Shown here piece by piece: positions 16,426 to 35,663 of a stretch of DNA of 64,000 nucleotides. The notes under the pieces are model-generated. The model did no database searches, was not told the origin of the DNA, and saw only the letters and a list, made by a program, of their open reading frames with translations. The translations under genes and the position numbers were made by a program. How positions within the stretch are numbered: the first letter of the stretch is position 1; the number at the start of each line of letters is the position of its first letter. The DNA is from Agroathelia rolfsii (lineage: Eukaryota > Basidiomycota > Agaricomycetes > Amylocorticiales > Amylocorticiaceae): the NCBI GenBank assembly GCA_018343915.1, contig JABRWF010000004.1, forward strand, positions 3,844,001 to 3,908,000. Direction: 5' to 3'.

Positions 16426-16732
16426 TCACGTCAACATCACCAGCGACCGCCACAGTTACTGTCATGGTCCCTGCATAATCTTCGGTTTCAAGTTCATACT
16501 TTGTCAATGGACCTTCCTGGTTGCATCATGGGTTCTCCAGCTATACGAAATGCCTGTAATATTTTGGCTTCCACTAGATATATAAACGGCTCATTCGACT
16601 TCTAATCATCACTAAACCCCTGTCTCAATCACTCGGCGAGTGCTCCGAGTCTCAGCCTTTGAACTACTATCATTTAACCCATCCATCCTCATTCTCTTGT
16701 ACTTCTCATCGCTCACTTTTAACTCACGAAAA
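16340..16732 (+). promoter_or_regulatory. Promoter block of Gly-rich paralogue 1
   Basis: The block is shared in sequence with the upstream regions of the other paralogues, most clearly with that of copy 4. It holds TCACGTCA (16426-16433, a bZIP/CRE-like site), a TATA box (16579-16586) and a near-palindrome CACTC-GGC-GAGTG (16630-16642) lying 91 bp before the ATG, so probably in the 5' leader. These elements keep their order and approximate spacing in the other copies. Confidence 0.65.
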
Positions 16733-17863
16733 ATGACCAACTTCACTCGTATTACTTCTTTGCTTTTTGTTGCCATTGCTGCATCTCATATGACGTCGGC
16801 CTCCGTCATCCCAGTCAAACGAGGGATTTTCGGAGGCATTGGTGCTGATGCTGGTCTTGATGCTAGCGCCGGCCTCGACGCTGGAGCTGGCCTTGATGCC
16901 TGCGACGATACTGATACTGGGCTCGACGCTGGCCCAGGGCTTGATGCAGGAGCTGGACTCGATACGGGCGCTGGCCTTGACACTGGAGCCGGACTTGGTG
17001 GAGATGCAGGCTTTGGAATCGGATTCGGTATCGGCGGAAGCGGTGGTCTCGGTGGTAGCACTGGCCCTGGCGGCAGCAGCAATCTCAGCGGAAGTGGTGG
17101 TGCCAGCGGAAGCACTGGATCCGGTAATGATGCAGGGCCCAGTGGCTCGGCAGGCGCCTCAGAAAACTCAAGCCTGTCTGGACAGGAGGGAGCATCACCT
17201 ACAGCTTCGTCATCCTGGAGCGAGTCCAGCCAATCAATTTCTTGGGGTGGTGATCCCCCCTCTTCGCCAGATTCCTCTTCGAACTCTCCTGGCCACTCCC
17301 ACCCCCTCATGCCTGTTACCTCTAGCGCTCCAATAGCAGCGGCATCGCCCTCCGAAAGCACGCCGGCATCTACTCCAGATGACCAATCGGGCTCGCCTTC
17401 ATCGTCTGGCGCATCTCCCGATTCCGACTCCTCGTCAAGCCCCTCGGGCCAGCAGGGCTCATCTTCTAGCTCGTGGAACCAGTCGAGCCAATCAAGTTCA
17501 GAGTCCTCCAACCAAAATGGCCAACAGAACCAATCCGGCTCTTCAAACCAAACCTCTCAATCGAGCTCGACCACCGGAGATAGCAAGCACGGTTCTCACA
17601 CCAGCTCCTCGAACGCCTCGAGCTCATCGGATCAATCAAGCTCGTCTGGTAACGCCCAAGGATCGTCGGGTCAATCTTCCGACTCTAGTCAGTCAAGCCA
17701 CTCGGAGCAGTACGGGCATCCTGGGGACGCACAATGGAGCTACTACAGCACTTACGCGTACACAAGCGGATATGCGCAGTCGACGCAGACTTCGCAGTCG
17801 ACGTCTACAGCTTATTCGAGCCAATCGAGCCAGTCGAGCTCGTCGAGCGAGCAGTACTACTAA
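16733..17863 (+). CDS. Secreted Gly/Ser-rich silk-like repeat protein, copy 1
   Basis: The gene is intronless and encodes 376 residues. A signal peptide (residues 1 to about 24) is followed by a short pro-segment SVIPVKR with a Kex2-type Lys-Arg at 29-30. Residues of about 35-110 are Gly-rich, built from GAGLDA-like hexapeptides and a GFGIGFGIGG segment, with a single Cys in a CDD motif. Next come Ser-rich tracts with SWSESSQSISWGG and GHSHPLMP blocks that only copy 4 shares, then SSNQNGQQNQ stretches, and the conserved cap QYGHPGDAQW, STYAYTSGYAQSTQ, ending SSEQYY. An upstream in-frame ATG at 16640 would bury the signal peptide and is not used here. No catalytic domain is visible. A structural or surface-coat role in the wall, hyphal sheath or fruiting body is inferred only. 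Confidence 0.8.
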   Translation: MTNFTRITSLLFVAIAASHMTSASVIPVKRGIFGGIGADAGLDASAGLDAGAGLDACDDTDTGLDAGPGLDAGAGLDTGAGLDTGAGLGGDAGFGIGFGIGGSGGLGGSTGPGGSSNLSGSGGASGSTGSGNDAGPSGSAGASENSSLSGQEGASPTASSSWSESSQSISWGGDPPSSPDSSSNSPGHSHPLMPVTSSAPIAAASPSESTPASTPDDQSGSPSSSGASPDSDSSSSPSGQQGSSSSSWNQSSQSSSESSNQNGQQNQSGSSNQTSQSSSTTGDSKHGSHTSSSNASSSSDQSSSSGNAQGSSGQSSDSSQSSHSEQYGHPGDAQWSYYSTYAYTSGYAQSTQTSQSTSTAYSSQSSQSSSSSEQYY

Positions 17864-18238
17864 TCCAAGAGTGGAATATTTCTTTCTGGACGCTTCGATG
17901 TCACTGATTTAGTTGATCAATCCTCTATTTTTTTTTTCTTTGCCATTCTCATTCGATGCTTCGAAACTTTCCTCCTTGCCTTTCATTCTCATTCACTTGT
18001 ACGCGCAATCCTGATTTCTTCAGATGCCACCTGTAAATTGTTGCATGTATGCATGTAGGTAGTATACCCGCCATCTGTTTATCCACCTACGGTAATGTAT
18101 AACAATTGTTGAGCTACGCTAGAAAGGCATGAGTCGCCTCTATTGGTACTAATAAGCAACATGACATCATTAAACTCGATCAATTACAAGTCAAAACACT
18201 TATACGAGCAATATTCACGCGGTTCTGATATCTATGCT
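17864..18238. terminator. 3' flank of copy 1 with conserved hairpin
   Basis: The 3' flank holds a T-rich tract and a short inverted repeat, GTAGGT (18055-18060) with ACCTAC (18085-18090), around TAGTATACCCG. It is followed by TAATGTATAACAA. Related sequence follows copy 2 (26720-26757), and weaker versions follow copies 3 (about 29185) and 4 (about 35849). This may be a 3' UTR or polyadenylation signal. Confidence 0.4.
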
Positions 18239-19834
18239 TCACACAACATGTTCCACCCCCTGCGGGAAAGCATAGCCTCCTTGCCTTCGCACCTGAAAAA
18301 AATAAGAAATTAGGTGCTGGAAAATCTCTAGTGCGAGACACTTTGTGCACTTACTTCGTCAAAGATTTCCATTTCCAGTAGACTCTTATCATGGCCCCAG
18401 ATTTCGCTCTCTAATTTCCCATCCCGCACACATCGAGCCACTTCATCTGCTTGGAAATGCCATCCAACACCGACATAATCGAATTTCCATGTCTCCTCTC
18501 GTTCCGAAAAGCCTGTTCCCTTGTCGTTGTGATATTTGACCGTAAAAGATCTCGGGCTATAGATTGGAGCGCCGATAACGATGGAGCCTCGGGAATAGCG
18601 AATCGTCACTCCTGGATCGGTGTTGACTGCATTGATGCTACAGGTGAGTATCGCCTGAGCTGCCAGCTCCGATGAAGGTGCTGAAGATGATGGTGAAAAT
18701 GTGAGCGTAAAGGATGTGTTGCTATCAACATTAGTCAAAGGTGTTTTGAGCATTGTTCCGCTGATCGTAGATGGCTTGGCTTTGTGATTGAGGGGATGCT
18801 CATACAGTGCCAAGATTGCCTGAGAACCGGTGTTAAATCTCAAGTTTTAAATTTATCATGGCCGTATACTCACCCAAATCAACGGATATGGACCACTATG
18901 GATCCAATAAAATGAGCTTTCAATAGTCAGTGAGAAGAAATTCACCTACAGATCGAGCAATCCCCCTCCTCCAAGGTTTGGATCGAGAATCCTGTTCGTT
19001 TTGGGAATTTCTAGTATCGAAAATAAGTAGACGGCAATATTTTTCCGTCTTGAAAAAAACATGCTTACTCTCGATATCAAAGTCGCCGGACAGATCAGCA
19101 TGAAGTACGATGGGCACCCCCAGCACCCCACTTTCTGCTATTTCTTTCACCTTCTTTGTCAATGGCTGGAAACGAGTCCACATTGCCTCCATGAAAAATA
19201 CGTTGTTCTCATTTGCAGCTTTAATCAGAGCACGAAGCTCTGCTGCGTTGGAAGTCACCGGTTTCTCGCAGAGAACATGTTTCTTCGCTTGAATCGCTTC
19301 AAGAGCGTTCGGATAATGATATGTATGTGGAGTGCCTAAAGAACACATCTTAGTGTTTTGTTTTACCCCAACCAGAACATGTTTTCGGCTACCTATGTAC
19401 ACGGCATCGACATCCTAACAAAACGGAATAAGATAAGACTGCAGCTACAAATCCGGGACAAAACATGCCTTATCATCGAAAACTTCTGTATAACTTCCGT
19501 ATGCCTTTACAGACTCGTCTCCGGGGATTTGTTCTTTGATGAATACTTGAGCCTTTTCAACACTGCGGGAGCCTACAGCAACGATCTTATGTGAAACATC
19601 ATGCACGTCTCGTCTGTTGTATTTTTGAGATGCAATGGTCAAACGGTAAGTTGAATTACTTGTGATAACTAACGTCTTTGGGTCTCTGAGAAGGTCCTAT
19701 GATTATTCCCGGTAAATAATTGGTTTCATTTTCTGGGTGTAAGTGGGTTTGGAGCTTACATTGACAAACTTGATGGCAATAGCACCAGTAGAAATAATGC
19801 CCCAGCGCAATTGTGTGGGCTGGACCGTCGTCAT
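18239..19834 (-). CDS. Gfo/Idh/MocA-family NAD(P)-dependent dehydrogenase (dihydrodiol/xylose dehydrogenase-like)
   Basis: This is a soluble oxidoreductase that oxidises a sugar or diol with NAD(P). The start at 19834 gives MTTVQPTQLRWGIISTGAIA, containing the Rossmann GIISTGxIA loop. Later exons read VHDVSHKIVAVGSRSVEKA, AYGSYTEVFDD, then YIGTPHTYHYPNALEAIQA and HVLCEKPVTSN, whose EKP motif carries the conserved catalytic Lys. Then come FMEAMWTRFQPL and DPNLGGGGLLDLGPYPLIW, which is typical of the dimeric dihydrodiol dehydrogenase/D-xylose dehydrogenase branch. The C-terminal domain runs to EHVV at 18239. The gene diverges from the OHCU decarboxylase across 356 bp. The substrate cannot be read from the sequence. 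Confidence 0.85.
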
Positions 19835-20190
19835 GGTGGTACAGCGCAGAGAATACTATGAGGCAATGTTCGGCGTAAAGACTGATGCTGGCCTCCTGAG
19901 ATTTCAAGATAAGAGGCGAAATCGACGATGATGACGAAACCATCGGAAAAACATGCTTCTGTATCACATTCCTACACCGTGACTATCACTGACGGGGGTT
20001 TGTCTGCGGCAGTTTGTTTCCGCCTTTATCTGTGTTTGTTCATCACCGGAAGTAAGTTCCAGCACTGATCTCTATTAGGTAGCACTGGCGATAATCTGCG
20101 TTCTCTGTAGCGTCAATTCAGAAATAACCGAGATAAGACAAACTACACTCGCAGCTTATAGGTGAAAATCACCAGGCTACCACAGAAACC
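19835..20190. promoter_or_regulatory. Divergent promoter region
   Basis: This 356-bp gap lies between the start of the Gfo/Idh/MocA dehydrogenase (minus) and that of the OHCU decarboxylase (plus). I see no clear TATA box or repeated operator. Confidence 0.35.
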
Positions 20191-20802
20191 ATGTCTGGAA
20201 ACAAAGGCAACTTGAAATCATTATCAGAATTATCAGAAGATCCGCGAGCCCTCGACGATACCTTGTCTGCCTTATTTGAACCCTCCATGGTTCTACATGA
20301 AATCCTCGTTCCTTCTTTGATCCAGGGCCTTGAAACCCAAAATAATCAACTGGACTCCTATGAGCAACTTGTTGATAGGGCCGTTGCTGTAATCCAATCA
20401 TGGGACGTGTCGCTTCAGGCTAAATTCATCGCCGGCCATCCGAGAATAGGGGAAACGAAGAACCTCAGTACGTTTTCCGCCCGCGAGCAGGGAAACACTA
20501 GCGCCGCACCTACGACCCCGCCTGAGGTGCTGGCCCGACTCGGGCATCTAAATAGGTGTTATGAGCACGTTTATCCCGGGCTCATATACATTACATTCGT
20601 CAACGGCCGCAGCCGTGCAACTATCGCGGAGGAGATGGAGATCAGGCTCGGACTTGAACATTCCCTGGATCCCAAATCGCCAGATCCCAGTAGCCTCAAC
20701 CCAAAGGTGATAGAAAGCGACGAATGGAAGGCAGAGTTGGGGCGTGCTGTTATCGACATCGGCTTGATCGCAAAAAGTAGATTGAAAACCTTGATCAATT
20801 GA
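20191..20802 (+). CDS. 2-oxo-4-hydroxy-4-carboxy-5-ureidoimidazoline (OHCU) decarboxylase
   Basis: This enzyme of uric acid breakdown converts OHCU to S-allantoin after urate oxidase and HIU hydrolase. A single exon encodes 203 residues. The motif FIAGHPRIGE (about residues 79-88) carries the catalytic His and Glu. It is followed by LGHLNRCYEHVYPGLIYITF and VNGRSRATIAEEMEIRL, the two signature blocks of the family. The length is usual for fungal members. There is no peroxisomal SKL-type ending (the protein ends in TLIN), so a cytosolic location is possible. No other purine catabolism gene is adjacent. Confidence 0.9.
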   Translation: MSGNKGNLKSLSELSEDPRALDDTLSALFEPSMVLHEILVPSLIQGLETQNNQLDSYEQLVDRAVAVIQSWDVSLQAKFIAGHPRIGETKNLSTFSAREQGNTSAAPTTPPEVLARLGHLNRCYEHVYPGLIYITFVNGRSRATIAEEMEIRLGLEHSLDPKSPDPSSLNPKVIESDEWKAELGRAVIDIGLIAKSRLKTLIN

Positions 20803-20993
20803 AACATTATCCTTTTTTCGCAGAAATTGTAATACATGAGAGGATATTGACGAATTTGAGTATAGTCCATCAGAAAAGCTACGCAAACAGTAAAGCGGAG
20901 CAAAGCAGAAAAAATAAGACAGAAAGACGAAGATAATAACACAAGTAATCAAAAACTACTCTTTTCAAAAATATAGTCCAAATATTAAAAACA

Positions 20994-21743
20994 TCAGGCG
21001 ATCGAGTATGCTCTCGAAGGGGGTGGAGGCTTAGGCGTCGGAGTCGTAGACTAAACAAGGAATGATCAGTCATCGAAAACCCAAGGCAAAGAAAAAGTCA
21101 TCGTACTCCTGCATGTCTAGCATTGGATGCCTGAGTGGCAATCTGCTGGAGTACCTTATCCACTAGTATGCTACAATTAGATACAGTTTGCGCTCTTTTG
21201 GCTCGAAAGGCTTCCAGGCGTTCCTGACGACGTTGTTCTGCCTGCTTTGCCCATGCCTCGCGCTCCTTGGCACGTTTCTCTTGTGATTCCCGGAGTGTTT
21301 CGACACTCTTCACGACCCTAACGTCCCTATCAATGACACGACTGTCATATATCTACCAGCAGTCAGAACATGATCACGATTGCCGGAGAGGAAACACGGT
21401 GTCCTACCCGACGCTTGATAGGATCGCCTAAGACTTCGAAAGCTTTGCAAACCTGATAAGATGTATCAATAAATGATCGACAAGACATATACGTAAAAGA
21501 ACGTCAAACCTGTTGAAACCTGAATGTTGCTGCCTCCCTTGAGGCACTACTAACTTCGGGGCCGAGCTTATCAGGATGGGTTTTCAATACCTGCTGCTTG
21601 TACGCCTTGCGAACTATCAATGGCAGCTGTAAGCGATCCAAATAAGGTGGTGTATTCCAAGACTATGCTAGCTCACCTTCTTCAGTGGTTGCGTGCCTTT
21701 CTATCCCTAGTATATCGTAGAAAGTGCGCGCTGCGGAGGACAT
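20994..21743 (-). CDS. J-domain (DnaJ-like) protein with coiled-coil tail
   Basis: This is a probable Hsp70 co-chaperone. The start at 21743 gives MSSAARTFYDILGIERHATT. After an intron the sequence VRKAYKQQVLKTHPDKLGPE contains the essential HPD motif, followed by FRFQQVCKAFEVLGDPIKRRIYDSR, a complete N-terminal J domain. The rest is a highly charged helical segment (EKRAKEREAWAKQAEQRRQE), probably a coiled coil. A terminal exon after an intron near 21050-21100 gives a Pro-rich end STTPTPKPPPPSRAY with a stop at 20994. Read-through of that intron stops at once (HAGVR, 21098). The architecture resembles small spliceosome- or ribosome-associated J-proteins, but I cannot assign one. Confidence 0.75.
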
Positions 21744-22076
21744 ACCGAAAACACTTCAAGCTACAAACGCTACAAGGAAACTTTTGAGATTAGCGGTATA
21801 AGGTGAGATGATGAAACAGGAAGGCTCAGGATAATCTAATTCGGTCAAATCAGGGGAGTAAACGTCTTAGGCTATTGTCAAATGGACACCGTGGGAAGTT
21901 CACAAGTTATAGAGGAAAGAAATCCAAGTTCAAGCAGTTCAACATGCAATCCCGTGATCGTTCGCAATAATGACGGAGTTTAAGAAAGCTCTTATCTCGG
22001 ACCGTACCTCCGGTGCCTTAATGACCCATGCCAAGGACTGTTCTCTGACCAGCTCCCAAGACGGTGAGGATAACAT
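21744..22076. other. Intergenic, no gene seen
   Basis: This gap lies between the J-protein start and the RPC4 stop. It is AT-rich and must hold the J-protein promoter. No clear TATA box is visible. Confidence 0.4.
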
Positions 22077-23646
22077 TCAAGTGGTATCCATAGTATACAT
22101 TCCCTCGCCTGTAACAACCTTTCTATTCATCTCAGCGAGTTCACTTGCTTCCTTTTCCTCCATCGCTTGCAACAATGCATCAACATCTGGTGATATTGTA
22201 AAACGTTTGTTCACTTCGCCAATGGCGCAGAGTCGCTGCTTTTTCGAGTCCGTGTAGACAGCCTCTTGATAGAAAGAGGGCTGTGTTGATGCGTTTACCT
22301 ATGAATGGATTAGAGAGGAAAATGTGACTGGGTGAAGAGAATCTAACCTCGAGGAGAATGTTGTTTTGCAAACGAATCTTAACGGCCCCGCTTCGATAAA
22401 ATTCGAGTTGCCCAATCGTACCATCTACTTTCTTCGCGGTAGACGTTTGCGCATCCCCTTCTTGTTTGACGGATGTTTCCGACTTTACATCAGCAGCAAA
22501 TGAAACACGTTTGCCTCCAGCAGCGTCTGACTCTATTGTAGCGTCTTGATCGATTTCCATATTTGAACCAGATGTCCAGTCGGGGAAAGGTGCAGGAAAC
22601 GCAAATACGTATAGGCGATTGTTTTTGAATCCTTCGTCATCCTATTCAAATATATAAGGAAGATACTGAAGACAGGGTCTACGGGCACATACCTCCATCG
22701 TTTCTGCTCGCGAAAAGTCCTCAATTATGTCCTCGAGCTCTTCCTCTTCTTCGCTCTCGCTCAGGTCCAGAGCATTCGCTAGATCAACCTCACCCGCGGC
22801 GGCGGCCTTCTCCATATCAATGACTTCCTCCATTTTGGTTGTTGCTAGCGGTTTGCGATGAGACATATTCATTAATCATCATAACCATGAAACTTACCGG
22901 CTCCACTAAGAGGCTTTTCAACCTCGACCTTGATTGCCTTCTTCGCCTTTTTGTTTCCTTCGCGTTCCCTTTTTAGACTCTCTGGAGCCATCCAATCCAT
23001 CCTCCCTACATGATCCATGTCGATAATTTCTACGCCATCATCAGGCTCCGAGTATACCTCTTCTTCCTCGTCGATAGGTTTTTCATCTTTCGATTTGACA
23101 TCGTCGTCCCTGATATATCCCCTATCTTTTGCCCCAGAAGAAACCTCCCCCTTCCCAGACCCTACTCCATCCCCAGTAGCTGACAGGGGGGGCGCAGGAG
23201 CGAAATTACTGCGCGAAGGTACACCGCGGCGGGTGGAGGGACCACCCATTGAGGGACCCATGGCGAACGGACCGCTGGCGACCATCTCTACCGACGGTCT
23301 TGGGCCAGAATCACCCCTTCCACGACCTCTTCCATCACCACGGCCTCGTCCTCTACCGCGAGCGGGAGCAGTGACAGGAGCTGGTTCCGCTGGTTGTTCC
23401 TGGACAATCAATCAGTTTCAGAGATACGAGCAGAAAAAGGAGTCAAGACGCACCTGTTTGGCCTCTTCCTTCTTACGACGTGGCGCAAGGATTGGAGTGA
23501 ACCTCAACTTTGGTGTGTTCGTTGGGCGTTTGGCCAAACTTGGAATCACTTTTCGTTGTGGTGTAGGCTGAGAAGGATCTTGGTCAATATCAGTATTTCA
23601 GAACGTCGCCAAATCGAAGGCGCATGCCTGCCTCGCCGTCAGCCAT
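22077..23646 (-). CDS. RPC53: RNA polymerase III subunit RPC4 (Rpc53)
   Basis: RPC4 is a TFIIF-like subunit of RNA polymerase III involved in termination and reinitiation. MADGEAGMRLRFGD (start 23646) is joined to PTPQRKVIPSLAKRPT and RFTPILAPRRKKEEAKQ. A long Gly-Arg-rich then acidic region follows (RGRGRGRGDGRGRG; DEEEEVYSEPDDG), then VEVEKPLSGA. The conserved C-terminal module reads RLYVFPAPFPDW, GTIGQLEFYRSGAVKIRLQN, ASTQPSFYQEAVYTDS and GEVNKRFTISPDVDALLQ, the family signature. The stop is at 22077. The first intron would be only about 37 nt, so the N-terminal join is uncertain. Confidence 0.85.
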
Positions 23647-24599: not shown

Positions 24600-25661
24600 C
24601 ATGTTTGAATTAATCGAAGCGGGGTCAACTCTCCGTCGGTTGCTTCTTGCCCAGTCAGCGACGATCGGATGCAAGAAAATGTGATTTCAGGGATTCAAGC
24701 CATTCAATCACAGCTATTCAAGAAGATTTTGATGTCACTGGCGCTTTTGCTGAGACAAAAAGAACAGTATCATTGACAGTCTGTTGCTTAATTCTGCACT
24801 TCAAGACAGTGTAACTATACTCAATGGATTCTTCGAACAAGACATTGATAGGTCCGACGACTGTTGAGCATGGTGCAGTATGCTCAGTATAGTTAAAGAG
24901 TAGTGACAAGGTCTCGCGGGAGTCGAAATGGCATTCTCCATTGGCAATACAAGAGGCTAACATTAATTTTAGCTCAGAGTGCATAGATACAAAACCGATA
25001 ACCATGCGATCGGAGTTGCCAGGGGAGTTGCAGTTACATATGCATTGGACACGTTTCCACAGGAAGTGCTGTGTTTTATGATCATTGAGACGATAGCCTG
25101 GAATGTCTATGCTGTGTTTTATACTCACGAGGTAACTGCACAGAGAGAAACAGGGCGGACGGGAAATTACTTTTGATTGTTCAACGATCAACTCGCAGCC
25201 GGAAGGCAGTAGCCACTCGTGTAACTCTTCTAATGGTAACTTGATACCGAAAAACATTTTCACTGACAAGTTCTTGAAAGTTGAAAACAGGATGCCGTTT
25301 AACGCAATCTGATGCATATATCAGCAACGTCAACCACCTTCCCGTCATGATCATGATTCAAGTTACCGCGTCACTGCTGCTAGTTCCTGTGAAGACTTGT
25401 TTTGCAAACTTGCACCTTCTAGTCAATTTCGTGCTCTGGCCGTCAGATCTCCAAGTGCATGACATACATACAACACTACATATTTCGCTGGGTATATAAG
25501 CTGCTCATTCTCTAAATTTTGGTCATTACCAATCCACTCAATCTCATCTCAATCCGAGTCACTCTGCGAGTGCTCCAAATCCCATCCGTCTTTGAACAAT
25601 AATCTTCCAATCCATTATCATTCTCTTATAACTTGAACTCACTCGCTCTTTACCCACAAAA
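24600..25661 (+). repeat. Duplicated upstream block and promoter, paralogue 2
   Basis: From about 24600 the sequence resembles blocks upstream of copies 3 (27215) and 4 (32680): TTTCAGGGATT (24687), a CTGCCCTGTTTC-type region (reverse strand, near 25150) and AGACTTGTTTTGCA (25394). Near the gene lie a degenerate CRE-like site (about 25325), a TATA box (25493-25500) and the near-palindrome CACTC-TGC-GAGTG (25560-25572), 90 bp before the ATG. Confidence 0.6.
24718..25317 (-). CDS. Doubtful hypothetical ORF inside the duplicated upstream block
   Basis: An uninterrupted frame of 199 codons reads MHQIALNGILFSTFKNLSVK and LPLEELHEWLLPSGCELIVE at its N-terminus, then becomes Cys/Ser-rich without repeats. 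I do not recognise it. Plausible intron borders (GTAATT...TGCAG near 25160, and GTGAGT near 25130) could shorten it. The homologous sequence upstream of copies 3 and 4 is closed by stops and shifts, so it is either a true gene whose remnants were copied with the promoter block, or a chance frame. Its ATG lies about 345 bp from copy 2 in divergent orientation. Confidence 0.3.
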   Translation of the reverse strand: MHQIALNGILFSTFKNLSVKMFFGIKLPLEELHEWLLPSGCELIVEQSKVISRPPCFSLCSYLVSIKHSIDIPGYRLNDHKTQHFLWKRVQCICNCNSPGNSDRMVIGFVSMHSELKLMLASCIANGECHFDSRETLSLLFNYTEHTAPCSTVVGPINVLFEESIEYSYTVLKCRIKQQTVNDTVLFVSAKAPVTSKSS

Positions 25662-26513
25662 ATGATCAACTTCACTCGTTTCACTTCCTTGATTTTTGTC
25701 GCTATTGCTGCGACTCATATTACTTCGGCCTCCGTCATTCCAGTCAAACGAAGATTTTTCAAGATCGGTATTGTTGATGCCGATGGTATTTTTGACGCAG
25801 GAACCAACCTGCGCGCTGATGCTGGTCTTGATGGCCGTGACGATACTAGTGCTGGACTCGGATTCGACGCTGGTGCTGGTTTTGATGCTGGTGCCGGATT
25901 CGATGCTGGTGCTGGTTTTGACGCAGGTGCCGGGCTTGATATTGGTGCCGGCTTTGGCGCTGGTGCAGGGCTCAGCACAGGAGCTGGTTTAGACATAGGC
26001 GCAGGTATTGGCGCCGGAGCAGGTCTCGGAATTGGCGCTGGCATTAGCATTGGTGCAGGTGCCGATCTTGGGGAAAGCGCTGGCCTCAGTGGAAGTGGTA
26101 ATGTGGGCGGAAGCGGTAGTGCCAACTCTGGTGGAAGTTCAGGCTCCGGATGGGGCACAAGTACTGGCGGTAGTGGCTCATCAAATGCCTCGGGATATTC
26201 AAGCTCGTCAAGCTCAGGCTCCGGATGGGACACGAGTACTGGTAGCAGTAGCTCATCAAGTGCCTCTGGATATTCAAGCTCGTCAAGTCAGTCGAATTCG
26301 TCTGGTAGTGCCCAGGGATCGTCGGGCGAGTCTTCGTCTTCTGGGTACTCTGCCAGTGCCAGTGGGTCGAGCATTTCGGACCAGTACGGGTACTCCGGAG
26401 ACGGACAATGGGGCTACTACAGCTCTTACGCGTACACGAGCGGGTATGCGCAGTCGACGACCCAGTCTGCTTATTCGAGCCAGTCGACGGGGTCAAGCGA
26501 GGAGTGCCGTTAA
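25662..26513 (+). CDS. Secreted Gly/Ser-rich silk-like repeat protein, copy 2
   Basis: The gene is intronless and encodes 283 residues. The signal and pro-region (MINFTRFTSL to SASVIPVKR, with an extra Arg at 31) match the other copies. The Gly-rich region (about 50-150) is the most regular of the four, with about fifteen GAGFDA/GAGLDI-type hexapeptides such as FDAGAGFDAGAGFDAGAG. A compact Ser-rich region contains two near-copies of SGSGWGTSTGGS. The cap is DQYGYSGDGQWGYYSSYAYT and SGYAQSTTQSAYSSQS. The last residues are SSEECR, where the others end in EQYY, so this copy has a C-terminal Cys. The Ser-Pro blocks of copies 1 and 4 are absent. Function is unknown; an extracellular structural protein is inferred. 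Confidence 0.78.
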   Translation: MINFTRFTSLIFVAIAATHITSASVIPVKRRFFKIGIVDADGIFDAGTNLRADAGLDGRDDTSAGLGFDAGAGFDAGAGFDAGAGFDAGAGLDIGAGFGAGAGLSTGAGLDIGAGIGAGAGLGIGAGISIGAGADLGESAGLSGSGNVGGSGSANSGGSSGSGWGTSTGGSGSSNASGYSSSSSSGSGWDTSTGSSSSSSASGYSSSSSQSNSSGSAQGSSGESSSSGYSASASGSSISDQYGYSGDGQWGYYSSYAYTSGYAQSTTQSAYSSQSTGSSEECR

Positions 26514-27214
26514 TCAAAGAAGGGATGCTTTTTTCTTTTACAAATACGGTTCTTTGATGTCATTTCTCTCGTACTTTATTTGATTAATAATCCTGGCATT
26601 CTGTTCGTTTTTTTTTTAAATGGCGTTTGAAACTGTCTTTTTTTTGCTTTACACCTTTGTTTTTCGTTCTTTTAGGTTGGATGACACATGTAAACTTGAA
26701 TCGTTGTTGCAGTTGCATATAGGTAGTAGTATACCCGTCCATTCGTTGAACCACCTAAAATAATGTGCAACAAATGTGGAATCAGGTTAAGAGCTAAAAA
26801 CTATTATTGATATCAAATGATTTAGCATCTCTAGTTACTACTTGCGATAAGGACTTGAAGTCAATCAACCCAAGGTCCTGCAGCTGCTGCCAACTTGATG
26901 CTTTCAAACAGTTTAACAATTCTACATTTAAGCGATTGATCAGTGCATGAGATATTTCGGAGACATGAAGATATTAAAGGTGAAGCAGTGCCTCTATTTG
27001 AGTATTTATCAATGCATGTAGTAGCCTAACTATGAAATGACAGTTGTGATTGTTCAAAAGTTCTTCTAGAACCAAACGAGATCATGATTGCTGTGTTTCT
27101 CAACACTAATAATTTCCTCATTGCTGTAGTATTCAAATATAAACTCCAACGTGCTTCTTTCGGCTATCAGACACCTCGTGTGGCCATTCTAGACCGAATC
27201 GACGTAGCCTATTG
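26514..27214. other. 3' flank of copy 2
   Basis: This region is T-rich and has no gene. It carries the conserved 3' inverted repeat TAGGT (26720-26724) with ACCTA (26753-26757) around a GTAGTATACCCG core, followed by TAATGTGCAACAA. Confidence 0.45.
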
Positions 27215-28312
27215 ACAAGCCGACCCCCATGCTCGTACCAGAGTTGATCATAGTGTCCGCGTAGTTCTCATGTCAAAGAAGAACGAGTTCCAACCGTATC
27301 CATGGCAGAGACCATGAAGCTTGAAGCTTTGTTGGCTACTTGTACTTTTTTCCGGTTAGCGATAATAGGGTGGACGAAAACACAATTTCAGGGATTTGAT
27401 TAATTATCACTGCTCGGAAGGTTCTTCATGTGACCAACACCGTTAATGAGATGAAGGGTCAAAAGAAGGGATTCGGCGTTATGCATTGACGCCATTAATA
27501 CTCTATTGTTTAATAGAGAAAAAGCCACTCTGCAAAAACAGTGTAGAAAAACACAAGTGACTATTGAGACAAGTTGGGAGTGTTGGTCGGAAAGCTATAC
27601 ACGCCAGTAGTGCGGTAAGGTCAAAATACTTGAACGCTGACAGGAAAGCCCTGCTTGAGTTGGGAAGTCACACCGGGGCCAGAGAATGACGAAAATTCAC
27701 TCTAGTCTAAAGTATAGACATCAAGCCGGCGGAGCATACACTGCCAGTGCCATACAATCGAGGTTACCAGGGGTATTATTATTTCACATTCATGAGGTGA
27801 TTATTCACAGAAAAAGGACAGCAGGGTAATTGCTTCAACGGTTCAACCTGAAGCCGCAGGGGAACTCTTCTTGTGCTGGTGGCAATATACCGGACCGGAG
27901 GAGGGTTTCACTCTTGGTGGTAGTAAGTTCCTGAAAGTTACCTGCTTCCGAAGGCGTGGACGACGACCATTCACGTCAGCACGTCACCGTCACTAACGAC
28001 TGCCACCACTACGGTTATGATCATAGTAGTAATCCCTGAGAAAACTTGTTTTAGACATTTGGACCTCGGTTTTATACTCTAACAGCTATATCATAGGATC
28101 TCCAAGTATACGATGCCTCTATAATGTTATGGGTTCTGCTAGGTATATAAGCTGGCTGTTTTCTGGCCTTTGGTCATCATCAATCTACCCCAACTCATCT
28201 CAACCACCCGTCGAGTGCTCCAAATCTCATCAGTCTTTTTTTGAACTAAAATCATCCAACCCGCCCACTATCACTCTCTTCAAACTCGTCACTCACTCAT
28301 AACTCACGAAAA
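27215..28312 (+). repeat. Duplicated upstream block and promoter, paralogue 3
   Basis: The region from about 27215 aligns by eye with 32680-33953: ACACAATTTCAGGGATTT (27381), GGTTCTTCATGTGA (27420), GGGTCAAAAGAAG, and CATCAAGCCGGCGGAG. Near the gene lie TCACGTCA (27971-27978), a TATA box (28144-28151) and a degenerate copy of the leader palindrome, CACCC-GTC-GAGTG (28205-28217), 96 bp before the ATG. Confidence 0.65.
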
Positions 28313-28987
28313 ATGAACACCTTCACTCATCTTACTTCTTTGATTTTTGTCGCTATTACTGCGTCCCAAATAACATCAGCCTCCGTCGTCCCAGTCAAAC
28401 GAACATTATATGGCGGTGCCGGTCTTGAGGCTGACGCAGGCCTGGATGCCGGTGCCAGTCTGGGTGCTGGTGCTGGTTTCGGTGGATATGGGGCTTTAGG
28501 TGCTGACGCAGGTCTTGCTGCTGGCGCGGACTTCGGTGCTGGTGCTGGCCTCGACGCTGGTGCTGGCTTCGGCGCAGGAGTCGGCCTCGATGCGGGTGCT
28601 GGAATTGGTGCTGGTGCAGGCTTTGGAATCGGCTTCGGCATTGGTGGAGGCGCAGGCCTTGGCGGAGGTGCTGGCCTTGACGGAAGCGGCACCGCCGGTT
28701 CTGGTGGAAGCTCAGAATCCGGATCCGGTATGAGCGCTAGTGGCAGCTACGGTAGCCCAGCAGGCGCCTCAGGAAACTCGGATGGATCGAATTCGTCCGG
28801 CAGCAATCAAGGATCGTCGGGCGCGTCTTCCGAGTCGATCGAGTCGAGCGAATCGGAGCAGTACGGAAACCCTGGAGAGGGACAATGGGGCTACTACAGT
28901 TCTTACTCGTACACGAGCGGGTATGCGCAATCAACCCAGTCGGCTTATTCAAGCCAGGCGACCCGTGGAAGCGAGCAATATTATTAA
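28313..28987 (+). CDS. Secreted Gly/Ser-rich silk-like repeat protein, copy 3
   Basis: This is the shortest copy: intronless, 224 residues. The N-terminus MNTFTHLTSLIFVAI to SASVVPVKR ends in the Kex2-type Lys-Arg at 29-30, and the mature protein starts TLYGGAGLEADAG, close to copy 4. The Gly-rich region (31-130) alternates LDAGAG, FGAGAG and IGAGAG hexapeptides and ends in GFGIGFGIGGGAGLGGG. A short Ser/Asn-rich linker leads to the cap EQYGNPGEGQWGYYSSYSYT, SGYAQSTQ and ends in GSEQYY. It has no cysteine in the mature part. It gives the minimal architecture of the family: signal, pro-site, Gly repeat, short Ser linker and cap. Confidence 0.78.
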   Translation: MNTFTHLTSLIFVAITASQITSASVVPVKRTLYGGAGLEADAGLDAGASLGAGAGFGGYGALGADAGLAAGADFGAGAGLDAGAGFGAGVGLDAGAGIGAGAGFGIGFGIGGGAGLGGGAGLDGSGTAGSGGSSESGSGMSASGSYGSPAGASGNSDGSNSSGSNQGSSGASSESIESSESEQYGNPGEGQWGYYSSYSYTSGYAQSTQSAYSSQATRGSEQYY

Positions 28988-29649
28988 TCAAAGGGGGCTA
29001 CTTTTTTTCGGAATATGGTTCTTTGATATCATTTATCTTTCTTTGTGCTAGTTGATCACTCGATTTAGTTCTTTTCTTTTTAATTTCACATTTGGAAACC
29101 TTTGTTTACTTTTCACCTTCACTCACTCGAGCGTTTCTGATTTTTTTTTTCGAGTTGAATTACACCTGTAAATTGTTGTTGCGTATAGGTAGTGGTATAA
29201 GCTTTATGCATTTCCTTAACACATGTTGAACTTGATAAGCGCTTTTTTTAGATGCTTTGAAGAGGGCAATAGGAATGGTACCCCATTTACTCTCATTCAG
29301 TTGGTTTTGTCTGGGTAGTACTATCCCGGTAGGTTACTGTGATATTCACGAACAGGTCATATCCTATACCTCAACTCTTCCAGATAATTTAATAATACTT
29401 TCAGTTCCAGGCTAAGTTCCGATTTTTTAATCTTTTCTCACTGAATACGCTGATCTCAACAAAGTCCATGTGCCGAACTCGCAACGAATTCCAATCTTTA
29501 TTGCTCACAACACTTGACTCTAGCCTCCGAGACATATTATGTTCATGATGACACCAACCCAGATTTATTCATGACAAGTTAGACTGTCACCAGCTTTCCT
29601 TCGCCTCGTGGGCTATCTATCTGGGATAAAAGAGTAGCTCAGCTTCCCA
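28988..29649. other. 3' flank of copy 3
   Basis: This stretch contains T-rich tracts and one half of the conserved 3' element (ATAGGTAGTGGTATA, near 29184). No gene is seen. Confidence 0.4.
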
Positions 29650-29741
29650 TGCGGACGTTTAGTCAGCTAACAAACCTCATCCTTCCCTACCTAAACAAGG
29701 CATGCTTACAACAAATGCCTCTGATATTACGCCATAGTACC

Positions 29742-30450
29742 TATTCGGAGGTGCTCGCAATATATGGCCTGTTGAAGTTTTCTACGTCGGCTTAGGTGAG
29801 GATTCGTCTCTTATGCCCCACTTAAGGCGTCTACGTATTATAATACCCGACGTGCACATCCAGGTATCTCCCCCTAGTTTTTCGGCTTTGAGTCAGTTTT
29901 TATGCACTAGGAAGACATCTCTAAAGCCCTTGGATATAGAGTTAAATCCACGAAGCTGGCCAGATTTTCCAGCTCTCCTTCCCTCCTTGAATCAATTCCA
30001 TGTTCTTGGAATTGGTCCCAGTACAATACATATATATGTTCCATTCCTGACCAGATGGAATCTCTGGCTGGTCATTTATCGCCGGACATGCGGGCTCTGC
30101 GACTCAGCATAAGTGAGGCTCAGACTGGCCCATGGATTCTTCATAGATTGGTACGTGTGTATTGCCAGTATATTTTCACTACATCTTCTTTCTCAGCGAC
30201 ATTATTTAGTTGGCGTATATTGATACTTTTACAAATCTGGAATTCATTCATATTAACACCCCATGGACACAAGTTTGTGCAGTAGAGGATGTTTACCATC
30301 TAAATCGACTTGAAATGGCTATACTCGATATGCATGTGTGGGAGCTTCGACGTAATCAGATGGAACGGTATCGCCTTACTTATAGCCGTCATGGAAGTTT
30401 CAGTTCCAATCTACTTAAGACTTTCCAAGCGCAAAAGCTGCTTGGCTGAC
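29742..30450 (+). pseudogene. F-box/LRR-like fragment
   Basis: Translated segments read FGGARNIWPVEVFYVGLGED, MPHLRRLRIIIPDVHIQ, LKPLDIELNPRSWPDFPALL, then MESLAGHLSPDMRALRLSIS and, after an intron at about 30151-30211, LAYIDTFTNLEFIHINTPWT to the stop after QKLLG (30450). The leucine-spaced pattern (LRRLRI, MRALRL, LEFIHI) is that of the LRR-like half of Agaricomycete F-box proteins. No F-box is found upstream, and joining the two halves needs a short or odd splice near 30020-30055. It is therefore best read as a 5'-truncated relic sitting between duplicated copies 3 and 4. Confidence 0.4.
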
Positions 30451-31156
30451 AACGCAGTTAACTTGAAGCCTTGATCACAATAAGTTGACGGGCCATTCCC
30501 CTAGACTGAATGATCAATCCAGGTGGCATGGGCTCGCTGTACTTACCCTGAGCGATGCCGTTAGCTTTAAAATGTGCGTTGCTCAGGTACGATTGGTCTA
30601 CGCACCCCCATAAACCACTGTCAAAAACAGTCCTAAATAACCTATGGCAATATTCTGCAATTATTAGCATCCAAATGCGAGCTCTTGTACTTTAAAGTAT
30701 CCGTCAAGGGATCTTTGTCACTGTATTGCTACTTACTGAGCACTATGATGAGCTGCTAAGGTTAACTCGCAAGAGCTTATGGCATTTCGTCATTGAATCG
30801 CCAATGAATGTGCCTCAGAGGATCGTGGACGACTGTTACAATGACAAACGACTAATTCCGGGTCCGGAATAGCTACTAAGTTCTTAGACACGTGGCTTAC
30901 TAGTACATCTGACACTTTATTGGGTACTGGTGTAGGGCCTGGGTTATGAACAATGCGGATTTCCCGCTTATCGGCAACTACAGCTGAATAATCATGACCA
31001 CTCATGATTGCTCATGCATGAGCATGCATGACTCAATGGTTGCTGTTCTCCCCCATAAATGGAGCACTAATATCGCATCTACAGTTACTGAATCACCATC
31101 ACACCCCTCGTTCATTTATCAACTGCGATTGCTACTCGATTGAGGACTGTGTAATC
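30451..31156. other. Intergenic, no gene seen
   Basis: This is about 700 bp, including the NmrA-like gene's promoter. TGCATGAGCATGCATGACTC (31014-31033) is a small repeated ATGCATG motif. Confidence 0.4.
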
Positions 31157-32412
31157 ATGTCAAAATTAATTGTTGTTCTCGGTGCTACGGGCATTCAGGT
31201 CTGTACAACATTCTTATGGACACTCACAGCTTTCTCACTATTACTATCTAATGCAGGGCGGCTCTGTCATCAGAGCTTTGCTCGAAGATAAAACAACGCA
31301 ATGGAAGATAAGGGCTATAAGCCGCGATCCAGCCAAACCTGCTGCAAAAGCACTGGAGTCACAAGGTATTGAGGTTGTACAAGCGGATGTTAACGACAAG
31401 GACTCGCTCATCGCTGCATTTAGGGTCAGTGCGATGGCTCATTTGCATGTTTTTACAGAATGACTAAATAACCCGAATTGGATATAGGGTGCTAACGTTG
31501 TATTTGGTGTGACTGACTTTGTGGGAATCTTCTTCCGTGAACTCACCCGCGAGAATGTTACACCTGCGTTCCCCGGCCAAACGGTCAACGAGCGCGCATA
31601 CGATGCTGAAGTTGCGAATGGAAGGAATATTGTCGACGCCGTTGACAGCATCGCAGACACAACACTAGAACGGTTCATTTGGTCGGAGCTGCCTGCCACA
31701 AAACGCATCAGTAATGGAAAATACACCCAGGTGTATCATTTCGACTCCAAAGCGGAAGTTACGGACTACATTAAATCGAAGCCTAATGTGGCGGCCAAAA
31801 CTTCCTATCTCCAGGTTACAATATATTTGAATAACTGGGAGTGGTCAAAAGTACTTCTGCCTGTCCGGGTATGTTTTTTTTTTAAGATTGATGCTTCATG
31901 GATTGATGAATGTACTCAAATGACAACCCCAGGCTTCGGATGGTGTGTTAGAGCTTAGACTGAGTGCTTCCCCGAGCGCCACTTACCCATTTATCGATGC
32001 GATTAAGGATACTGGCAAGTTCGCCAAGGCGCTCCTGGCCCTTCCTGCGGGACAGACGCTTCTCGCTGTCTCAGAGGAAGTTTCCTGGCCAGATTATGTT
32101 GCCATCTGGAGCAAGGTCACCGGCAAAACTATTCGGTATAAGCAAGTCTCTCCTGAAGAGTTTGTCACCACTGCACCGGCCAGTCTTGGTGAAGAAATAA
32201 GACAAATGTATGATTACATAGGAGAGTTTGGGTTTAGTGGCCATCAATCTGGGGTTCTTCGACCTAAAGACGTGAGTATTTCGCTTTATAACTTGAATCG
32301 TGTTACTTTACGATATTTAAACTAATATTTTGACTAGTTGGGCCTTGATAAGAGCGCCACGACTATTGAGGAATACATGCGATCTGTTAATTGGTCGTCT
32401 GTACTGGCGTGA
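31157..32412 (+). CDS. NmrA-like NAD(P)-binding protein
   Basis: This is an atypical short-chain dehydrogenase of the NmrA/HSCARG group, thought to sense NADP/NADPH or act as a reductase. The start at 31157 gives MSKLIVVLGATGIQ, joined after the first intron to GGSVIRALLEDKTTQWKIRA; GATGIQGG is the dinucleotide-binding loop. Further parts read AISRDPAKPAAKAL, VVQADVNDKDSLIAAF, GANVVFGVTDF, NIVDAVDSIADTTLERFIWS, VYHFDSKAEVTDYIKSK, then WPDYVAIWSKVTGKTIRY and the last exon LGLDKSATTIEEYMRSVNWS, with a stop at 32412. Four introns keep the frame. The length (about 330 residues) fits the family. A regulatory role would be inference. Confidence 0.82.
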
Positions 32413-32679
32413 ATTATTCACCACCCTTGTTTCAGGGTGCTCCCTATTGATAGTGGATTTCTGGTATCGAATCGCACGGTGTAATTTGCAATATAGCACT
32501 GAAAATCATATTTTTATTTTATCCTGGAGTTTCTCCTCTGACATTCCATCAATTCCTAATATTGAGGGAAAATGATTTCGCGCATTTAAAAAATCGTGGT
32601 CATGGTGCTAGTTTTGTTTAGCATATAATAGCATATATCCTGTCTTACACTTTTACAATTGACTCGTATATATCACATT

Positions 32680-33953
32680 TGACAAGCTGAGTCCCATGAT
32701 GCTCGAGCCAGAGCCTGTGTCCGTGTTCATCTTAATCTGCCGAATTCCCACTTCGTCCAAGATGGGGCTTCGATCGTATCCATGGAAGGGGACATGAGGC
32801 CGTGTCGGTTACTTCTTGTGCAGTCAGCGACGGTAGGACGGATGAAAACACAATTTCAGGGATTTAATGATTACTGCCCGGGAGGGTTCTTCATGTGATT
32901 AATATCATTGATGAGATTAAGGGTCAAAAGAAGAGAGTTATACATTAATGCCATTGGCGGGTTATCGTCTGATCCAAGAGAAAATCTCACGGCGGCAAGA
33001 AAGCGTAGAAATGCATAACAGACTATTGGGATAAGTCGAAAGTATCTGGATCTGCAGTTCGAAACGCCATACAGGCGAGCGGTACAGTGATATTAACGTC
33101 TTTAAATGCTAACAAAAAGAGCCTGCTCGAGTTGAGAAGACACTTCAGGGTCAGGGAATTACGAAAAATTATTTTAGGCTAGAGTGCATAGACATCAAGC
33201 CGGCGGAGTGTACATTCGGGGTTGCCAGGGGGGTTATTATTATTTCACAGATATGAGATGATTATTCAGAGGAACAGGGCGGCAGGGAAATTGCTTTCGA
33301 CAACGGTACAACTTGAAGCTGCAGTGCAGCCTGGGTAACCCTCTCGCGTAAACTATTCTAGTAGCAGTATTATCAGCGGCCTACTGGTGCAAGAGCAGTC
33401 AAATTCATAGTAGTAGCGGAAAGCTCGAGGGAAGAACAGTGAGATAGGTTGTGTATTTGCCTCATTCAAACAGATCACTGGTATGAAATGAGAGACCCTC
33501 CGAGCTCGTCCTAAGTCGTTCAGACTGTCATTGCGTTTGTCGGTTGGTGCGGAAGAAAAGAAGCTTCCTTGAAATTTGTCCGGAAGCAGGATCGACGACG
33601 ACGTCACACAAGTCACGTCACCGTCACCAGCGACCGCCACAGTTACCATCATCATAATCACAACAATCATCCTGGTCCCTGCGTAATTTCACTGTTTGTC
33701 TTGCACATCTGGTTTCATAACTCTCAGCCCAGATCTTTCGTAGTCACGTCATGGGCTCTTCGAACCGTACGACATATCTGCAATGCTATCGACTCTGCTG
33801 GGTATATAAGCCGCTCATTCTCTGCTCTCTGGCCATCATCAAAAACCACTTGTTTCAATCACTCAGCGAGTGCACTCAGTCTTTTCAGAATTTGTCTTCC
33901 AACCCATTATCATTCTCTCATATCTCTCTTCACTTACTCTTAACTCACGAACA
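32680..33953 (+). repeat. Duplicated upstream block and promoter, paralogue 4
   Basis: The block aligns by eye with 27215-28312 over about 1.2 kb. Near the gene are TCACGTCA (33613-33620), a TATA box (33803-33810) and the near-palindrome CACTC-AGC-GAGTG (33860-33872), 82 bp before the ATG. A minus-strand frame (33353-33670) shares the AVAGDxDVT...TSSSILLPD segment with the block upstream of copy 1. It probably reflects duplicated DNA and not a protein. Confidence 0.65.
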
Positions 33954-35663
33954 ATGACCAACTTCACTCGTCTTACTTCTTTGCTTTTTGTCGCCATTGT
34001 TGCGTCACACATGACTTCGGTCTCCGCTATCCCAGTCAAACGAACACTATGGGGTGGTGCCGGTCTTGAGGCTGGTGCCGGTCTAGGTGGTGGGCTTGAT
34101 GACTGTGACGATGCTGGTGCTGGCCTTGGTGCTGGTGCAGGGCTCGACGCAGGAGCTGGCTTCGGAGCTGGTGCTGGCCTTAGTGCTGGCGCAGGGCTCG
34201 ACGCAGGAGCTGGCTTCGGAGCTGGTGCTGGGCTTGGTTTCGGTGCTGGGGCAGGCCTCGACGCAGGAGCAGGCCTCGATGCGGGTGCAGGTCTTGACGC
34301 TGGCGCTGGACTTGGCGGTGGTGCAGGCTTTGGCATTGGATTTGGTATTGGTGGAAGCGGCGGCCTTGGTGGGAGCGCTGGCTTTGGTGGAGGCGCTGGT
34401 CTCGACGGCGGCGCGGGCCTTGGCATTGGATTCGGCATTGGTGGAAGCGGCGGCCTTGGTGGAAGTGCCAGTCTTGGTGGTCACGCTGGCCTTAGTGGCA
34501 GCGGTAGCGCTGGTCTTGGTGGAAACGGTGGTGCTAGCGGAAGCGGCAGCGTTAGCTCTGGTGAAAGCTCTGGGTCCGGTGTCAGTGCTGGTGGCAGCAT
34601 CTCCGGGTCCGGTGTCAGCGCTGGTGGCAATGGTTCTGGCTCACCAAGCCCCTCAGGAAACTCGAGCCCATCTGGCCCTGGACAGGAGGGACCATCGCCT
34701 ACGGATTCTTCGTCTTGGAGCGAGTCCAGCCAATCCGTCTCTTGGGGCGGTTATTCACCCTCTTCCCCGGATCTGTCTTCTCCGAAATCGCCTGGTCATT
34801 CGCACCCCCTCATGCCTGCTAACTCTGGCACACCTACAGGAGAAGCATCATCCCCCGAGAGCACACCGGCCCCTACTCCTAACAATCAATCTGGCTCATC
34901 TTCGCCTTCGTCGTCCAGCCCATCTGACTCCAGCCCCTCTGGCCCACAGGCCTCGTCATCTGACTCCCCTTCGTCATCCAGTCCGTCTGGCTCTGGCTCT
35001 TCCGGACCTTCTAGCCCCTCTGGCCCGCAAGATTCACCATCTGGCTCTCCTTCATCGTCCGGCCCATCTGACTCGGGCTCTGCTGGACCTTCAGGGCCCT
35101 CTGGCGACCAAGGCTCACCATCTGGCTCTCCCTCATCCCCCAGCCCGTCCTCCAGCTCCGGTTCCGGCTCTGTCTCCATGTCCGGCTCCTCGTCGGGCCC
35201 CGCGGGCCCGCAGGGCGCATCCTCCGGCTCGGGGAGCCAATCTTCCAACCAAAACGGCCAGCAGAACAGTTCCTCGAGCCAGTCTTCGCAGTCGAGCTCC
35301 GAATCCTCGAACCAGAACGGCCAACAGAACCAGTCTAGCTCCTCGAACCAGTCCTCGCAGTCGAGCTCGACGACCGGAAACGGCAAACACGGCTCTCATA
35401 CCAGCTCCTCAAACGCTTCGAGCTCATCGGACCAGTCGAACTCATCTGGCAGCGCTCAAGGGTCGTCTGGCCAGACCTCCAACTCGAGCCAGACGAGCCA
35501 CTCGGAGCAGTACGGACATCCTGGTGATGCCCAGTGGAGTTACTACAGCACTTATGCTTACACGAGCGGATACGCGCAGTCGACCCAGACTGCACAGGCG
35601 ACGTCGACAGCTCATTCCAGCCAGTCGAGCCAGTCGAGCTCTTGGAGCGAGCAGTACTATTAA
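33954..35663 (+). CDS. Secreted Gly/Ser-rich silk-like repeat protein, copy 4
   Basis: This is the longest copy: intronless, 569 residues. The N-terminus MTNFTRLTSLLFVAI to SAIPVKR has the Lys-Arg at 29-30. The Gly-rich region (about 33-230) includes a 54-bp direct repeat (34141 and 34195) and a 90-bp direct repeat of the GIGFGIGGSGGLGGS segment (34332 and 34422), showing recent internal expansion. A single Cys lies in a DDCDD motif. The Ser/Pro/Gly region (about 240-450) carries many SGSPSSSGPSDSG-like units plus the SWSESSQSVSWGG and GHSHPLMP blocks shared with copy 1. Then come SSNQNGQQN repeats and the cap (515-569), ending WSEQYY. No enzyme domain is present. An upstream in-frame ATG (33870) lies in the leader and is not chosen. 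Confidence 0.8.
   Translation: MTNFTRLTSLLFVAIVASHMTSVSAIPVKRTLWGGAGLEAGAGLGGGLDDCDDAGAGLGAGAGLDAGAGFGAGAGLSAGAGLDAGAGFGAGAGLGFGAGAGLDAGAGLDAGAGLDAGAGLGGGAGFGIGFGIGGSGGLGGSAGFGGGAGLDGGAGLGIGFGIGGSGGLGGSASLGGHAGLSGSGSAGLGGNGGASGSGSVSSGESSGSGVSAGGSISGSGVSAGGNGSGSPSPSGNSSPSGPGQEGPSPTDSSSWSESSQSVSWGGYSPSSPDLSSPKSPGHSHPLMPANSGTPTGEASSPESTPAPTPNNQSGSSSPSSSSPSDSSPSGPQASSSDSPSSSSPSGSGSSGPSSPSGPQDSPSGSPSSSGPSDSGSAGPSGPSGDQGSPSGSPSSPSPSSSSGSGSVSMSGSSSGPAGPQGASSGSGSQSSNQNGQQNSSSSQSSQSSSESSNQNGQQNQSSSSNQSSQSSSTTGNGKHGSHTSSSNASSSSDQSNSSGSAQGSSGQTSNSSQTSHSEQYGHPGDAQWSYYSTYAYTSGYAQSTQTAQATSTAHSSQSSQSSSWSEQYY

Follow-up and report, generated by a model that had tools for sequence, protein, structure and literature searches.

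A stretch of 64,000 nucleotides of the Agroathelia rolfsii genome (37.67 Mb, 8 contigs), positions 3844001-3908000 of contig JABRWF010000004.1 (C4; hereafter "the window"), carries four genes, g1-g4, whose products we read, with some reservation, as lineage-restricted secreted block proteins in which an amphipathic alternating core would assemble into an extracellular coat, sheath or fibre. All four are uninterrupted plus-strand frames (376, 283, 224 and 569 residues), as expected from an earlier note on this DNA that described intronless same-strand genes, and the span given there runs exactly from the g1 ATG at 16733 to the g4 stop codon at 35663. The layout that it described is likewise evident from an alignment of the four proteins, which are all built from a leader that ends in KR, followed by a Gly-rich core and a Ser-rich linker and closed by a Tyr/Gln-rich cap at the C-terminus. 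A Ser/Pro block is present in g1 and g4 and missing from g2 and g3, and g4 has the longest Ser/Pro/Gln linker of the family.

The regularity of the core was evaluated by assigning G, D, S or N to the small face (face 1) and non-Gly residues to the other face (face 2), with core boundaries set by a composition rule that yields cores of 81-183 residues. The longest unbroken alternation spans 31, 83, 41 and 69 residues in g1-g4, and 67, 65, 49 and 79 residues in second copies of these genes on contig C5, compared with only 17-22 residues in shuffled cores (1000 per core). The silk-like Gly alternation proposed earlier therefore holds for a G/D/S/N face; with Gly alone as the small face, a count made without shuffle control, the longest runs are 9-29 residues. 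Face 2 is mostly Ala, Leu, Phe and Ile, and adjacent large hydrophobic or aromatic residues lie an even number of positions apart in 172 of 194 cases summed over the eight cores. Period 2 is the strongest of periods 2-12 in every core. A 6-residue phase goes beyond the shuffles in five of the eight (matched in strength by no more than 1 of 2000 shuffles), while in window g1, window g4 and C5 g2, 157-364 of 2000 shuffles are equally strong. The hexad tally comprises 132 units over the eight proteins, with LDAGAG (20), FGAGAG (10) and LGAGAG (9) named most often; that the 25 commonest hexads all begin with L, F, I or V results from the manner of picking.

The two faces also differ in character and may constrain how the core changes in length. 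Within the longest runs, mean Kyte-Doolittle hydropathy is -0.5 to -1.6 for face 1 and +1.6 to +2.9 for face 2, a larger difference than that between the faces of a GAGAGS unit (-0.4 and +0.93). Core length differences between the copies amount to 16, 14, 16, 2, 12, 12, 4, 6 and 10 residues, even in nine of nine cases, compared with four of ten outside the core (Fisher two-sided P 0.011); two of the nine (12 in g3 and 10 in g4) lie near the C-terminal edge and depend on the boundary chosen. Such parity is as expected where strand facing must hold while length drifts, and, unless slippage is the cause, it would say that the facing of residues is important and the unit count is not.

Outside the core, all four proteins have the same residue at 18 of their first 30 positions, a stretch ending P-V-K-R, which confirms as sequence the shared 30-residue signal/pro-region noted before; a hydrophobic stretch can be read at about residues 9-18. 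With this signal-like N-terminus and a single Kex2-type KR, secretion is plausible. The mature parts (from residue 31) contain no KR, RR, KK or RK in any of the eight proteins, KRR spanning the presumed cut in window g2, and they hold 0-3 Lys, 0-4 Arg, 0-1 Cys and 0-11 N-glycosylation sequons at a net charge, by residue count, of -14 to -29. Ser and Thr account for 31-49% of the second half of the proteins. The cap has 8-9 Tyr and 5-8 Gln in 42-51 residues and includes a block, approximately QW(S/G)YYS(T/S)Y(A/S)YTSGYAQST, that is strongly conserved among the four. Since no hydrophobic C-terminus is seen in the sequence, a glycosylphosphatidylinositol anchor is unlikely. The extreme C-terminus of g2 (window 26462-26530) reads EECR in the window and EWY in the C5 copy, so that one copy has lost the final Tyr of the cap; g1, g3 and g4 end in QYY in both.

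Codon comparisons indicate that g1-g4 are real genes under purifying selection. The ratio of nonsynonymous to synonymous divergence (dN/dS) between the window and C5 copies ranges from 0.138 to 0.323 (Table 1); in the final 60 columns of the alignment the ratio is 0.04, 0.25, 0.08 and 0.03 for g1-g4, respectively, and the last 125 codons of window g1 and g4 show a dN of 0.055 at a dS of 1.5. That the DNA might be low in complexity and without protein product, or that a Pro-rich antisense frame might be the real gene, can for practical purposes be set aside: there are open antisense stretches, and the antisense frame with the same wobble position gives a similar dN/dS (0.13-0.35), but it is broken by 9-24 stops per copy pair whereas the sense frame has none in four of four pairs, and the conservation of leader, cap and upstream boxes follows the sense direction. 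Because of these stops, we regard the antisense frames as by-products. The 3' end of g4 (35276-35666) is 86% identical to the C5 copy of g1 (C5:604568-604958), and synonymous distances over the last 125 codons of the g1 and g4 copies range unevenly from 0.75 to 1.50, a hint of exchange between g1 and g4, or of uneven rates.

The family comprises the same eight genes by every query applied to the genome. Cap and leader queries each gave exactly eight matches, the four window genes and four on C5, and the core query gave 11 matches at E ≤0.001, all within these eight genes (20 candidates scored). The C5 copies lie on the minus strand in mirrored order, collinear with the window, and are all intact with differing repeat lengths; the frames are open in eight of eight, and a 111-residue difference between the g4 copies falls in the linker. 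Window positions 1-46433 are collinear with C5:623016-570001, where 570001 is the end of the C5 stretch compared, and the alignment is broken by gaps at window 12828-15851 and 29200-32656 and by an insert in C5. Identity is 90-92% in three large flanking blocks, 79-88% in blocks within the cluster and 83% in a 0.5-kb piece adjoining the C5 insert. C4 and C5 look like homologous chromosomes. Because an OHCU decarboxylase occurs once on each, multicopper-oxidase matches are mirrored (C4:515700, 1207088 and 1399964 compared with C5:3849926, 3128485 and 2936934) and the window is collinear, we read C4 and C5, from these comparisons and that of the cluster, as two haplotypes of a dikaryon or diploid.

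In all eight upstream regions, TATATAA lies 151 to 172 nucleotides and CGAGTGC 84 to 104 nucleotides before the ATG. As the six window gene pairs are separated by synonymous distances of 0.86-1.53, the boxes are likelier to have been kept by conservation than by recent copying, and their conservation suggests co-regulation of the cluster genes. GCG, ACG and GTG codons are rarer than in neighbouring genes, as they are in a reference gene of this genome that we take to encode EF2; this avoidance gives weak support to good expression.

Table 1. Features of the g1-g4 cluster, in window coordinates (box distances are from the ATG).
Feature	Position	Strand	Remarks
g1 repeat protein	16733..17863	+	376 aa; C5 copy 419 aa; open frame, leader and cap common to the family; dN/dS to C5 copy 0.157
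g2 repeat protein	25662..26513	+	283 aa; C5 copy 235 aa; dN/dS 0.323, highest of the four
g3 repeat protein	28313..28987	+	224 aa, shortest window member; C5 copy 248 aa; no Cys; dN/dS 0.138
g4 repeat protein	33954..35663	+	569 aa; C5 copy 732 aa; dN/dS 0.160
g1 core	16823..17065	+	residues 31-111; end set by composition rule
g2 core	25752..26102	+	residues 31-147; holds the 83-residue unbroken alternation
g3 core	28403..28693	+	residues 31-127
g4 core	34044..34526	+	residues 31-191
g1 cap	17708..17860	+	residues 326-376; Tyr/Gln-rich
g2 cap	26382..26510	+	residues 241-283
g3 cap	28859..28984	+	residues 183-224
g4 cap	35508..35660	+	residues 519-569
TATATAA promoter-like box, g1	16579..16585	+	-154
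TATATAA box, g2	25493..25499	+	-169
TATATAA box, g3	28144..28150	+	-169
TATATAA box, g4	33803..33809	+	-151
Conserved CGAGTGC element, g1	16637..16643	+	-96
CGAGTGC, g2	25567..25573	+	-95
CGAGTGC, g3	28212..28218	+	-101
CGAGTGC, g4	33867..33873	+	-87

The four genes were also described as a cluster, and all four are indeed present; the span is not a pure array, since other genes are interspersed, among them a Gfo/Idh/MocA oxidoreductase, an NmrA-like gene and the OHCU decarboxylase (20191-20802). Searches of the window gave nothing at the gathering threshold of Rfam and no tRNA, and a simple scan for polyadenylation signals 3' of the four stop codons found nothing. The insert in C5 is an 8.4-kb stretch, absent from the window at about 36003, downstream of g4. 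It holds adjacent minus-strand frames (C5:582577-585331) with NACHT/NPHP3_N (506 aa) and seven WD40 stretches (375 aa), apparently a STAND/NLR-type gene differing between the two chromosomes. A 3.5-kb segment between g3 and g4, window 29200-32656, contains the NmrA-like gene; nothing in C5:570001-630000 matches it over at least 300 bp at E ≤1e-20, and it would be a second presence/absence difference, inside the cluster.

The earlier note knew of no named fungal family with this layout, which agrees with our searches. Pfam returned no model for any of the four window proteins at E up to 1, and a protein search with the cap alone (g3 residues 178-224) returned no candidate. A profile built from two g3 and two g2 sequences gave seven matches among 7987 candidates scored (E 6.7e-7 to 5.3e-4): a metagenome protein, P0121, two proteins with the CIS tube Pfam model and four short anonymous frames. 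By eye these are Gly/Ala-rich and none carries the cap, and the matches look compositional. P0122 and P0127, PF19266 proteins (one named CIS tube protein, from Piscinibacter), have long Gly-rich alternating stretches, apparently of independent origin. The profile search requires shared 5-residue words, scored the candidates with most words in common and drew its queries from g2 and g3 alone; distant fungal relatives may escape it. A PDB search with g3 alone gave two matches, the better at E 0.16. Among the openly licensed PubMed Central papers listed, none describes a fungal silk-like family as judged from titles and term counts, which is weak evidence of absence. The OHCU decarboxylase served as a control: its best match is a metagenome protein (74%), the other 119 of the best 120 of 372 matches have 52-60% identity, and those with species names, among the matches listed, are Agaricomycetes as far as recognised, in keeping with a mushroom-class basidiomycete that has no close named relative in this search. 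As Agaricomycete proteins are thereby shown to be represented in the same database, family members having short exact words in common with g2 or g3 are probably not widespread.

For the assembly that we favour, the following course may be envisaged. The leader would be removed in the secretory pathway and the pro-segment cut once, after KR30, by a Kex2-type protease. The core would pack as amphipathic beta-strands with Ala, Leu, Phe and Ile on one face and Gly and Asp on the other, the Ser/Thr-rich linker, probably O-mannosylated, would keep the chains hydrated, and the Tyr-rich cap would drive association or undergo oxidative cross-linking; the latter is possible given the Cu-oxidase_3 multicopper-oxidase domains in the genome (19 matches, laccases and others unsorted). 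The product might then be a coat, sheath or fibre on hyphae, spores or fruiting tissue. A bolder proposal, which we put forward tentatively and by analogy, is a true fungal silk, made by a secreted, fibre-forming family that would have evolved independently; its amphipathic Gly/Asp-X beta core would be the solid phase and the conserved Tyr/Gln cap would trigger assembly, as terminal domains do in spider silks.

Several observations weigh against assembly. No homologue of known function emerged from the Pfam, protein, profile or PDB searches. AlphaFold2 modelled g3, with 7 sequences, at a mean predicted local distance difference test score (pLDDT) of 39.8 with 0 of 224 residues at ≥70, the only helix being residues 3-18 at about 51, and it gave no fold for a 110-residue regular core alone (C5 copy of g1; mean 44.6, 0 of 110 at ≥70); such low-confidence models would fit disorder as well as an unmodellable assembly. 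Asp recurs on the Gly face, where it would resist tight silk-type stacking. The indel parity comprises 19 gaps only and depends on alignment and boundary, and the even lengths could partly stem from slippage in 2-residue steps. Gln and largely Ser codons resemble those of the neighbours and not EF2, Ile codons differ from both, and the GC content at third codon positions, 0.50-0.52, is lower than in the neighbours and EF2 (0.60 and 0.66). A tyrosinase family search of the genome was empty, the same search being silent in 14 of 14 control genomes, and no absence is claimed. A specific fold was also considered for the core, namely the left-handed beta-helix, a solenoid with [LIVF][GAED]xx[STAV]x units (Phe added in this analysis). 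The motif occurs 8-18 times per core, compared with shuffle means of 2.7-6.1, and the LDAGAG unit fits it; AlphaFold2 builds no solenoid from the 110-residue core and Pfam has no match for the four window proteins, so that this fold, which the motif would allow, is not supported.

The nearest rival, doubtful in our view, is a surface-active coat in which the core would spread as an amyloid-like film over hydrophobic or air-water interfaces and take the part that hydrophobins, or Rep1 from Ustilago maydis, play elsewhere. Because the core faces differ in hydropathy more than those of GAGAGS, such an amphipathic coat suggests itself almost as readily as a silk thread, and Rep1 peptides are described, in a passage of PMC4617103, as forming surface-active amyloid-like fibrils. 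The mature parts, however, would not be cut into peptides, having no dibasic site in eight of eight proteins, and include a large hydrophilic Ser-rich part. A hydrophobin family search of the genome was empty, as would suit such a coat, but the same search was silent in 14 of 14 control genomes; no absence is claimed, and the result proves nothing. Ranked next, and slightly less probable, is a disordered glycosylated mucilage or adhesive with an O-mannosylated linker, whose Tyr-rich cap would glue hyphae to the substrate without beta assembly. The high Ser and Thr content of the second half, the lack of a confident AlphaFold2 fold and the free variation of linker length between copies would suit it, although it leaves both the 31-83-residue alternation and the even-only core indels unexplained.

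Much further down we place a repetitive secreted effector, or a protein interacting with a host or partner, with length-polymorphic repeats. The length polymorphism between the two copies recalls Rsp3 of Ustilago maydis, a repetitive effector that varies in length among field isolates according to part of PMC5923269, yet selection is purifying throughout rather than diversifying, and the proteins are Cys-poor and match neither a Pfam family nor a known effector. We retain assembly of the alternating core as the preferred, if guarded, interpretation.

If assembly is correct, a fungus would possess a silk-type block design that combines alternating small and large residues with a hydrophilic spacer and a conserved end cap, is built mostly from 6-residue units and has no demonstrated connection to the silks of animals; if the product is a true silk, the design would have a separate origin outside animals. 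The family is readily testable, consisting of four small intronless genes, each with two natural copies of differing core length, whose mature products contain hardly any Lys, Arg or Cys, and it may offer a short genetically encoded material. Should the product instead be a mucilage or surface coat, the work would still name an orphan family among non-hydrophobin extracellular proteins, which we judge to be a poorly catalogued part of fungal biology.

Among known systems, the heavy chain of Bombyx mori silk fibroin, with its long GAGAGS-type array, is similar in having Gly at alternate positions, a repetitive core with conserved ends and secretion (here presumed). The cluster units LDAGAG, FGAGAG and LGAGAG differ from it in carrying Leu, Phe or Ile and Asp, the core is just 81-183 residues long with a separate Ser-rich linker, and no sequence homology is shown; strict alternation of the fibroin kind is found over 31-83 residues with a G/D/S/N small face and over 9-29 with Gly only. 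As the eight translations show no GAGAGS array, we do not assign the proteins to the fibroin heavy chains. Hydrophobins, defined by an eight-Cys pattern, are secreted, as the present proteins presumably are, and possibly comparable in surface activity; membership was rejected on the 0-1 Cys of the mature parts and on the Pfam search, which matched none of the four window proteins. P0121, a 428-aa JGI metagenome protein, shares a signal-like start and GAGAGFGAGAG-type stretches (34% identity over 24% of the query); by reading, it has two long non-repetitive stretches and neither Tyr/Gln cap nor Ser-rich linker, and the resemblance is probably one of composition.

The remaining comparisons concern fungal secreted repeat proteins. 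Rep1 is a secreted basidiomycete repeat protein with amphipathic repeats, as the cluster proteins presumably are, and these too may serve as a surface coat. Its 12 repeats of 34-55 aa are separated by Kex2 sites and cut into peptides, as a section of PMC4617103 has it, whereas the cluster units are mostly of 6 residues with one KR only, before the core, and the proteins are not repellents of that type. KEX2-processed repeat proteins (KEPs) combine a signal region, here only signal-like, with internal repeats and a Kex2-type KR; they are described as widespread in fungi and detected in several agaricomycetes in a portion of PMC9769878, and a survey defined them, in the part of PMC6339444 concerned, by KR/RR or KK cleavage yielding at least 4 fragments. 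With no Kex2 site between repeats in eight of eight cluster proteins, we place g1-g4 outside this class as well. "Silk-like" is thus the name of a layout that these proteins have, and not of a family to which they belong.

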